DNA of 44,412 bases from a virus: positions 1-44,412 of the IMG/VR virus record IMGVR_UViG_3300023708_000986. One strand, given 5' to 3'. Below are positions 2,591-42,625 of the stretch, piece after piece (the stretch's first letter is position 1; each line of letters starts with the position of its first letter). Under the pieces are notes generated by a model. It saw only the letters and a program-made list of their open reading frames with translations, made no database searches and had not been told where the DNA came from. The position numbers and the translations under genes are program-made.

Positions 2591-3041
2591 TCCACGAAGC
2601 CAAGCAGTTCTACATCGACTACATCACATCCAAGCCAAAGTCCCACCGCACCGTGGAAAACGTGCTCATGCGAAGTTCGCCGTGTCTGGAGTCCAGATCC
2701 GCAAGCTGCTACTGGAGGATGGCCACATCAAGGTGCTCAAGAAGGACAAAGGCAAGGACGGCAAGATTTTCCTGCGCGTGGCAGCCACAGGAAAGCCTCT
2801 ACCGCCCCCAGAAGGAAGCCCCAACGCCTACCTCCCCACATGGGAAGACGGCACGCCGAAGTCCCGGGGCAACGCATTCGACTGGCGCAACTATGGCAGC
2901 AGCATCCTGAACGACAGAGACTTCCTGTTTTCTGAGACCATGAAAAAGAACTCAGCAGGCACCGGGACGGATGCACGCAAGCAATTCACCATCTACAGCC
3001 GGGCCAGACCATCGGCCCAGCGTGGAGTCGGACTCCAGTAG
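2587..3041 (+). pseudogene. Frameshifted hypothetical gene
   Basis: The ATG at 2587 has a perfect ribosome site and reads MIHEAKQFYIDYITSKPKSH up to about 2670. After that the frame turns into Ser/Arg-rich nonsense and stops at 2910. In the -1 frame, from about 2670, a sensible protein continues (AKFAVSGVQIRKLLLEDGHI, later LRVAATGKPLPPPEG and GNAFDWRNYGSS) to a stop at 3041. No XXXYYYZ heptamer lies at the junction, so a lost base (ATGGCG to ATGCG near 2668-2672) or a sequencing error is more likely than programmed shifting. The last residues, GVGLQ, are encoded by a palindromic repeat. Confidence 0.65.
3023..3037. repeat. GAGTC palindrome, copy 1 (G-centred)
   Basis: TGGAGTCGGACTCCA is a perfect 7-bp-arm palindrome around one central base. 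It overlaps the final codons (GVGLQ, stop) of the frameshifted gene. Member of a seven-copy family in this window. Confidence 0.9.
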
Positions 3042-40718: not shown

Positions 40719-40749
40719 CCCCCCACTCAAAAGGTGGGGGGTCTTTTTT
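40719..40749 (+). terminator. Terminator of the rightward operon
   Basis: CCCCCCAC (40719-40726) pairs with GTGGGGGG (40734-40741) around a seven-base loop, followed by TC and TTTTTT ending at 40749. It lies about 120 bases after the last rightward gene and marks the convergence with the leftward operon. On the opposite strand the loop-side T-run is absent, so it should stop rightward transcription mainly. From 40657 to 40748 I see no gene. Confidence 0.88.
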
Positions 40750-40820
40750 CATGAGGCCAGAATCATCCAGACCATCATTACAATGAAGATGATCGGGAAG
40801 ATGTTGAGAAGGCCCCTCAC
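40749..40820 (-). CDS. 23-aa single-TM micro-protein, GTG start
   Basis: GTG at 40820 overlaps the stop of the upstream gene (GTGA). The frame reads VRGLLNIFPIIFIVMMVWMI then LAS and stops at 40749. It is one hydrophobic helix. An AGGGG seven bases before the GTG may serve as ribosome site. Coupled position plus hydrophobic coding pattern support it; size limits certainty. Confidence 0.45.
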   Translation of the reverse strand: MRGLLNIFPIIFIVMMVWMILAS

Positions 40821-41050
40821 GCCTTGCCCCTGACCTGCTCGATTCGCTCGGCCACCAGATAGTTGACTGAGCGTGCCACGTCGACGCACTTGGCGCGTTC
40901 CTCCTTCTGGATGGCTGGTGTTGCAGCGGCCACAAATGCGTTGGCCAAGAGCACCAGATCGTCCTCAAGGAAGTTGTAGTTCTCTTCCAGCTTCACAGAG
41001 CGGAAGGCCTCACCCACTTGTTCGGGCGTCAGTTCAATTTTTTCGGTCAT
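40817..41050 (-). CDS. Small helical early protein
   Basis: 77 aa. Sequence (ELTPEQVGEAFRSVKLEENY, EDDLVLLANAFVAAATPAIQ, EERAKCVDVARSVNYLVAER) resembles a widespread family of short phage proteins that carry the 'LVLLANAF...KEERAKCV' pattern. ATGA-type overlap with the gene upstream. All-helical, no membrane segment. Function unknown. Confidence 0.75.
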   Translation of the reverse strand: MTEKIELTPEQVGEAFRSVKLEENYNFLEDDLVLLANAFVAAATPAIQKEERAKCVDVARSVNYLVAERIEQVRGKA

Positions 41051-41517
41051 ACGATTCCCCAGTCTTCACAAAGCATGTCGGATTGCGATGCAACCCAAGG
41101 CATGAACTGATCATCCACAGTTTTGATTCCCACCCATGGACGGCCATCTAGCAATTCCAGACCTCGCGTGGTCTCCCAGTGCGAGGCCGGGATCAAGTGC
41201 AGCCACATCCCCTTGCCATTCCAGCCCTTCCGAGCCACCTTGTGGCCCATTTTGAGCGCTTCCAAGGCCATGCTGAAGGTCAGGCAGTCTGCAGGCCTGT
41301 AGGCCTTCTCAAACACTTCCTTGGGCGACCACGAAATGTAGCCCTTGAAGTTGGGGTGATTGGCTTGGCCACCGTCAACGTACTCGACGAGGTACCCGGC
41401 GTCATCACCATTCTCGTCAGCAGGGAGTTCCCAGCCTCGGAGGATGTTGTACGCCGCACGGGTCATGTCGATGGCGTTGATCAGCTTGGTGCCGATATAC
41501 GGCTTCATGTCGCTCAT
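41047..41517 (-). CDS. DUF2829 (Tad2, anti-Thoeris-like) fusion protein
   Basis: 156 aa, GAGGA before the ATG. The C-terminal about 80 residues match DUF2829: CLTFSMALEALKMGHKVARK, GWNGKGMWLHLIPASHWE, PWVGIKTVDDQFMPWVASQS and DMLCEDWGIV. DUF2829 is the family of Tad2, an anti-defence protein that sequesters Thoeris signalling nucleotides. The N-terminal about 75 residues form another phage domain (IGTKLINAIDMTRAAYNILR, GDDAGYLVEYVDGGQANHPN, YISWSPKEVFEKAYRPAD), often seen next to DUF2829. Anti-defence activity is inferred from family membership and not shown here. Confidence 0.78.
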   Translation of the reverse strand: MSDMKPYIGTKLINAIDMTRAAYNILRGWELPADENGDDAGYLVEYVDGGQANHPNFKGYISWSPKEVFEKAYRPADCLTFSMALEALKMGHKVARKGWNGKGMWLHLIPASHWETTRGLELLDGRPWVGIKTVDDQFMPWVASQSDMLCEDWGIV

Positions 41518-41524
41518 GGTTTCC

Positions 41525-42448
41525 TCACTTCAGGTTAATAAATGGGGTGGATGATCCAGCCATAGTCTCTGGCAGCTTGCCATTCCATTTTTCAATGGCT
41601 TTGAGTTGCACGTAGGATGCGCCGCCTTGGCTATTGATCGCCTGAGTCTCGATCTGGATGGCTTTGGCACGGCCTTCAGCCTTGGCAATCTCTTGCTTGG
41701 CCTCGACCTCGATACGGGCCAGATCTTGCTCGGCCTTTAGCTTGGACTGAGTGGCCGTCACCTTTGCTTCGATGGCCTTTTGATACTCAGCACTGAAGCC
41801 AAAGTTGACCAAAGAAATGTCGCCAACAGTGATGCTGTATTTCATCAACTTGCTGTTCAATTCCTCGCGGATCTGCTGAGAGACTTGATCGCGTTTTGTG
41901 ATTAGCTCTTCGCTGGTGTAGTGCGCCGTCACAGCCTTGAACGATTCGTTCAGGATCGGCAATATCACACGGTCTTGCAGGTCAAGACCAAACTCTTTGT
42001 AGATGTGCGCAGCCTTCGTGCCGTCCAGTCGGTAGTTCACCACAATGTTGGTGTGAACTTGTTGGAGGTCACGAGTACCAGCACTGGCATTTTCCAGCTT
42101 TGTGGAGACCAGCCTCACTTCGACATTTTTGATCCCGGAAAACGGGTTCACGAAATGAAGGCCTTCAGTCAACGTCGTTTGATTGACCGTGCCAAACGTC
42201 ACTTGCACTCCGATGTGGCCAGCAGGAACGATGACGTAGGACTCTGTGAGGATGTACAGCGCCACAACAATGACGGAAACAATGCTTGCCATCTTTGTAT
42301 GGAACTTTGGAGCGGAAGGTGGCGTGGTACCACGCATTCTGGCTTTGCGTTCTGCATATCCGTAATTGTTTGCCTCATGGGCGTAGATTGCAGACGCAAC
42401 CCCAAATGGAATTGCGGCAAGAAAAATTGACAGAAAAATGATGATCAT
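41525..42448 (-). CDS. SPFH/prohibitin (Band 7) family protein
   Basis: 307 aa, GAGGTG before the ATG. Two N-terminal hydrophobic segments (MIIIFLSIFLAAIPFGVASA at 1-20; SIVSVIVVALYILTESYVIV at about 55-74) precede the Band 7 domain (VPAGHIGVQVTFGTVNQTTL, EGLHFVNPFSGIKNVEVRLV, VHTNIVVNYRLDGTKAAHIY, ILNESFKAVTAHYTSEELIT). A C-terminal helical oligomerisation tail follows (KLKAEQDLARIEVEAKQEIA, KAEGRAKAIQIETQA). Such proteins form large membrane rings or cages and control FtsH-type proteolysis in hosts. A phage copy may protect or modify the host membrane (inference). Confidence 0.85.
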   Translation of the reverse strand: MIIIFLSIFLAAIPFGVASAIYAHEANNYGYAERKARMRGTTPPSAPKFHTKMASIVSVIVVALYILTESYVIVPAGHIGVQVTFGTVNQTTLTEGLHFVNPFSGIKNVEVRLVSTKLENASAGTRDLQQVHTNIVVNYRLDGTKAAHIYKEFGLDLQDRVILPILNESFKAVTAHYTSEELITKRDQVSQQIREELNSKLMKYSITVGDISLVNFGFSAEYQKAIEAKVTATQSKLKAEQDLARIEVEAKQEIAKAEGRAKAIQIETQAINSQGGASYVQLKAIEKWNGKLPETMAGSSTPFINLK

Positions 42449-42457
42449 ATTGACACC

Positions 42458-42625
42458 TCAAAACATTCCAAACCAAACGCAAGTTCCGTGGATGCAGCCA
42501 ACGGGGAACACGATGGTCCCAATGAGCAACAGAATCCACTTGGCGCTGCTGATGCAGGTGACCACATGGGTGAGCCATGCAAGGCCCACCCACGCGACCA
42601 CGCTCAAACTGAGTAGGTCGCCCAT
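42458..42625 (-). CDS. 55-aa membrane protein
   Basis: ATG at 42625, eight bases after GGAGT on its strand, to a stop at 42458. It reads MGDLLSLSVVAWVGLAWLTH, then VVTCISSAKWILLLIGTIVF and PVGCIHGTCVWFGMF. Two hydrophobic segments with a short polar turn and four cysteines. I recognise this type (LSLxxxAWxxxAxLTHxxTC) from other phages. The frame lies between two good genes and just before the SPFH start. Role unknown. Confidence 0.68.
   Translation of the reverse strand: MGDLLSLSVVAWVGLAWLTHVVTCISSAKWILLLIGTIVFPVGCIHGTCVWFGMF

Follow-up and report, generated by a model that had tools for sequence, protein, structure and literature searches.

Tad1, Tad2 (Thoeris anti-defence 2), Acb4 and RyR proteins, which act on nucleotide immune signals, have so far been treated as independent inventions, each discovered and investigated on its own. 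Within the Tad2 family, binding of cyclic dinucleotides (CDNs) has been attributed to a long insert between strands 2 and 5 (PMC12043709). Acb4 is the sponge family represented by PF13876 (PMC11722364), and RyR proteins belong to the families that bind or cleave nucleotide immune signals (PMC13232231). The Acb4 study mentions "additional extensions" on homologues that are left unexplained there, and parts of the pattern described below may therefore have been seen without being named. The window, i.e. the whole stretch of 44,412 nucleotides of viral DNA analysed here, encodes a protein in which a Tad2 domain is preceded by a second domain, referred to here as the N-domain. The relevant features are as follows.

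41047 to 41517, minus strand: N-Tad2 gene, 156 amino acids, two domains (open reading frame, matched by PHROG 872 from end to end, under purifying selection)
41290 to 41517, minus strand: N-domain, residues 1-76, an undescribed module common to Acb4, Tad1/Acb2, RyR and PF21825 proteins
41047 to 41280 (stop codon included), minus strand: Tad2 domain, residues 80-156, in the short-insert form (PF11195; matches Tad2 folds with Z 11-12)
41525 to 42448, minus strand: SPFH-like gene immediately preceding N-Tad2 in the operon (open reading frame, PHROG 200; linkage in few other phages)
40817 to 41050, minus strand: 77-aa gene downstream, the start of which overlaps the N-Tad2 stop (open reading frame; a homologue is joined in-frame to the N-domain in locus L065)
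40749 to 40889 and 42458 to 42625: small hydrophobic open reading frames

The preliminary description had placed an open reading frame at exactly 41047-41517, which is borne out, but for the minus strand, as the plus strand there contains a stop. The N-Tad2 start codon lies 7 nt past the SPFH stop and is preceded by GAGG, and the TGA of the gene overlaps the ATG of the 77-aa gene (ATGA). The spacing and the overlap place the gene within a tight operon, in which it is translationally coupled. The operon also encodes an exonuclease-like protein and a PHROG 862 protein, and the terminase, portal and tail-fibre-type genes of the phage lie on the opposite strand. The PHROG 872 match covers the whole protein (E 4e-60), and full-length homologues with ~45-80% identity are found in dozens of viral contigs. 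With respect to close relatives, dN/dS ranges from 0.07 to 0.14 in the N half and, where calculable, from 0.07 to 0.21 in the Tad2 half, with synonymous sites near saturation in some pairs. Both halves are thus under purifying selection, and the homologues, the end-to-end match and the low dN/dS together establish the gene as real, far beyond chance.

The SPFH gene and the membrane peptides that had been remarked upon are indeed present; as to a functional link, all that recurs is that an SPFH/Band_7 gene directly precedes the N-fusion gene of a few unrelated phages. Besides the window, this placement is seen in the related locus L065 and in two phages of Acinetobacter (L089 and L376), where the N-domain is joined to PF21825 rather than to Tad2. 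A functional link between the SPFH gene and the N-fusion gene is possible, but an SPFH gene occurs anywhere nearby in only ~10 of 378 loci. We also note that in locus L002 the position occupied by the SPFH gene in the window, directly 5' of N-Tad2, is taken by an Acb4-family gene (2696-3004; PF13876, 83 bits), an arrangement seen where the N-Tad2 gene is closely related to that of the window.

The C-terminal half of the protein, residues 80-156, matches Pfam PF11195 (Tad2-like, formerly DUF2829) with 82.2 bits (cut-off 25; E 3.9e-23), and its best sequence matches in the PDB are to ModTad2 (9eib/8v3e, E about 1e-17). Among solved relatives, ModTad2 (apo and hisADPR-bound) ranks first, followed by HgmTad2/AcrIIA7 and SPO1 Tad2. 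The AlphaFold model of the whole protein has a mean pLDDT of 89 and a pTM of 0.61 for the full chain, such that the placement of the two domains relative to each other is uncertain. Compared with solved Tad2 proteins (VIA-align), the predicted fold reaches Z 11-12 with 36-51% identity, 72-81 aligned residues and an rmsd of 1.6-3.2, as against Z of at most 6 for unrelated proteins. Profile, sequence match and predicted fold thus agree with the earlier assignment of this half to DUF2829/Tad2. The Tad2 residues that are invariant among 56 aligned two-domain sequences (alignment A1) are all retained, namely R96, W99, N100, G101, K102, W141, D147, D152 and W153.

The GWNGKGM and EDW motifs are separated by 46 residues in the window protein, which places it at the short end of the family range of 31-71; by hand count, the same spacing is 52 residues in ModTad2 and SPO1 Tad2. 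The long insert of the CDN-binding Tad2 subtype is absent from the window protein. Given this short-insert form, an ADPR-type ligand would be a better guess for the window Tad2 than a cyclic dinucleotide. ModTad2, the closest to the window Tad2 half, binds His-ADPR. By analogy with the family, the Tad2 half would most likely assemble as the known Tad2 homotetramer, which has two signal pockets, and take up an ADP-ribose-type signal (gcADPR or His-ADPR) made by Thoeris TIR proteins; with the signal sequestered, the effector would stay off. We consider it likely that the N-Tad2 protein, a putative two-domain counter-defence protein encoded in a tight operon, is a Tad2-family signal sponge that carries a shared counter-defence module.

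Residues 1-76 have no match in Pfam or NCBIfam. When modelled alone, this region adopts a confident separate fold (pLDDT 94.6) with the element order strand-helix-strand-strand-helix and with the YLVEYVDGGQANHPN core at residues 42-56, in keeping with the earlier view of the N-terminal half as a separate phage domain. Searches of the PDB by sequence and by fold yielded no significant relative of the N-domain. The best comparison with a chromodomain gives Z 2.9 over 46 residues, a value that is not usable (Z <3), and there is no sequence match; matches to cytochrome c, argonaute and MAC/perforin proteins were dismissed as short chance motifs. A shorter form of ~48 residues, which lacks the helical insert, aligns to the window N-domain at E 2e-26. 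R, W, E and SWSP positions are near-invariant, and the strongly conserved residues are alike with Tad2, PF21825 and Acb4 partners, and largely also in stand-alone copies. This likeness across partner classes argues for one constant role of the N-domain rather than a fit to each partner. A partial search of the literature found no description of the domain, so that an earlier mention is possible.

A natural allele bears on whether the N-terminal half has any meaning. Locus L065 has the same operon as the window and an N-domain that is 92% identical, but the Tad2 half is missing and the N-domain continues in-frame into a homologue of the downstream 77-aa gene. Such an allele would suit an ordinary Tad2 whose N-terminal extension is meaningless, or a relative of Tad2 that has lost signal binding. 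We regard this as very improbable, as the N half folds, is conserved and stays under purifying selection when Tad2 is missing as well (dN/dS 0.09 in L065), and the invariant Tad2 positions of the window protein are intact.

To define the partners of the N-domain, phage records, viral contigs and genomes were searched with the N-domain alone and each open frame was classed by local profiles. Frames were taken from stop to stop, contigs were dropped only if nearly identical, and examples were cross-checked with Pfam and the PDB. This yielded 341 distinct open frames, from scans whose loci overlap in kinship, 45 with the N-domain alone and 296 with a partner. By profiles that were built from the same loci and spot-checked with Pfam, the partner belongs to a family with known binding or cleavage of nucleotide immune signals in 260 of the 296 partnered frames, most often Tad2, followed by Acb4, with Tad1/Acb2 and RyR as rare cases. 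Counted among the 260 are six frames missed by the local profiles, i.e. L309 and L347 (PF11195), L373 (PF24729), L423 (judged Tad2-like by eye), L220 (Acb4-like, truncated by the end of its contig) and L387 (a divergent frame judged Acb4-like by eye). A further 30 frames have only PF21825 (crAss001_48) as partner, and the other six (L374, L121, L081, L159, L065 and L084) have a different one. Of the other frames of at least 100 codons in the same loci, 1-3% belong to these families.

The share of Tad2 in this census is inflated, because the first viral scan was queried with the full-length protein. The genome scan, performed with the N profile alone, is free of this effect and gave 62 distinct frames, of which 57 are partnered, all with a signal family or PF21825 (33 Tad2, 11 PF21825, nine Acb4, three Tad1/Acb2 and one Tad2 plus PF21825; five alone). 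Partner identities are further seen in matches to PDB entries 9e4w for Acb4 (E 3.9e-9) and 8kbb for Tad1 (E 3.4e-34), in an Acb2/Tad1 hairpin (62 bits) and in a RyR domain (PF02026) that shares its frame with an N match of E 9.5e-8. A protein of Ruegeria phage 45A6, considered as an N-RyR fusion, proved to be N-Tad2. Parsimony gives 35 partner changes on an N-domain tree that is too poorly resolved for counting fusion events, the starred branches forcing almost none. By association, the N-domain is thus a module whose fusion partners are nearly all sponges or hydrolases of nucleotide signals, and we suggest that it is an autonomous module that phages put onto proteins disarming such signals. 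The earlier reading of the fusion, partly supported, extends in this way to a general module.

Up to three such partners accompany the N-domain in a single protein. The most elaborate case seen, L066 (2968-4254), has N, Tad2, Acb4 and PF21825 within a single frame of 428 aa. Other combinations are N-Tad2-PF21825 (L222), N-PF21825-Tad2 (Bacteroides phage BS-TP1), Acb4-N-PF21825 (Stenotrophomonas phage Philippe and others) and N-Acb4-PF21825 (cr107_1), and C-terminal of the N-domain lie a complete Tad1 in L221 and a RyR domain in Yersinia phage TG1. Separately, L121 (1372-1956) and L084 (1456-2043) have in common a C-terminal domain (DPEYAWSWHCNIAM ... AARFM ... GVDT) with no Pfam match, possibly a further counter-defence family. 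In gut-type sequences L237 (2647-3171) and L238 (2641-3171), a KFRRKPVVVDAF-type domain, whose sole match is a weak PGDYG-like one, stands ahead of a short N-domain in one frame. An extended Tad1 (gp184, PDB entry 8y6v) was considered as a possible hint at virion packaging.

The N-domain also occurs as a gene of its own, and in 28 of 29 such cases the flanks contain no sponge ORF, which suggests that the domain can act by itself; these genes might otherwise work together with a sponge that the genome encodes outside the flanks. A stand-alone N gene of Erwinia phage Fifi051 is annotated as "virion RNA polymerase", seemingly in error, since a properly sized namesake gene adjoins it. The stand-alone copies, together with the likeness of the N residues across partners, lead us to prefer a small binding domain with a conserved ligand of its own, by which the fusion would become a sponge of double specificity. 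We hold this reading at somewhat less than an even chance: since no known sponge fold and no known ligand-binding domain resembles the N-domain, the idea of an own ligand draws solely on association and conservation. Nothing speaks in favour of the nuclease binding that had also been considered for this domain.

The single conserved pattern irrespective of partner would also be expected of a docking domain, which binds no signal itself and holds sponges beside one common protein; this might be a phage protein or, on the host side, a scaffold or an enzyme that makes the signal. The N-domain sits on unrelated sponge folds and at either end (Acb4-N and N-Acb4), and a three-stranded sheet with a C-terminal helix is a common build for protein recognition, the chromodomain-like topology being weak (Z <3). 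However, no partner protein is known, sponges act on signals that diffuse and, in the solved cases, do so without docking, and stand-alone N genes that have no sponge close by are less easily explained. We rate docking as a tentative alternative that is nearly as likely as the preferred own-ligand reading.

The presence of the N-domain on many folds could also reflect a scaffold, i.e. an aid to folding, stability or oligomerisation that raises dose or valency and has no specificity of its own. Known sponges act stoichiometrically as oligomers (PMC12043709), and stabler or larger assemblies would help. Yet many Tad2, Acb4 and Tad1 proteins function without an N-domain, and a mere solubility tag would neither demand near-invariance at the R, W, E and SWSP positions nor be so specific to signal-binding partners. 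The scaffold, one of the two roles first proposed for the fusion, thus appears unlikely; for the other, a second anti-defence function, the partner bias is circumstantial, strong evidence and suggests that the proposal may be correct.

Taking the own-ligand reading further, the N-domain may be a new and widespread phage signal-binding domain that acts alone or as a bead of multi-specific sponges, with PF21825 as a further sponge or hydrolase family, which we consider less likely than not. PF21825 is nominated as a candidate signal-binding family because it partners the N-domain in the same set as the known signal families. If both do bind signals, phages would be assembling sponges from modules to counter several immune signals together. 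The association points to a putative shared trick for silencing bacterial immunity, and one unnamed domain joined to all these families provides a sequence handle for finding counter-defence families by partner. Laboratory phages such as N4 would allow multi-specific sponges to be tested directly.

Compared with the known systems, the C-terminal half of the window protein is a full Tad2 domain in the sense of SPO1 gp34.65 and ModTad2. The solved Tad2 proteins are ~88-90 aa long and lack the N-domain, whereas the window protein has 76 residues ahead of a Tad2 domain whose middle loop is ~6 residues shorter. Acb4 (PF13876, the N4 gp49/Sf6 gene 66 family) differs from Tad2 in fold and in ligand (3'3'-cGAMP), but the same N-domain is found on it in at least 41 distinct ORFs, and Acb4 genes often adjoin N-Tad2 genes; with the profile used, no Acb4 was found in the window. 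Tad1/Acb2 (PF24729) and RyDEP-type RyR (PF02026) have unrelated signal-binding folds and are rare partners, fused to the N-domain in L221, L373 and Yersinia phage TG1. The crAss001_48-related protein (PF21825), the profile of which gave no significant match in a PDB search, is likewise an N-domain partner and shares chains with Tad2 and Acb4. Judged from matches, PHROGs 872, 9467 and 32732 cover N-Tad2, N-Acb4-like and N-PF21825 proteins, respectively; all three are listed as "unknown function", and the common N-domain is unnamed there. The N-Tad2 pair itself is not rare, as it constitutes PHROG 872 and is present in coliphage N4, where an Acb4-like gene overlaps the N-Tad2 gene (L077, 2594-3453).
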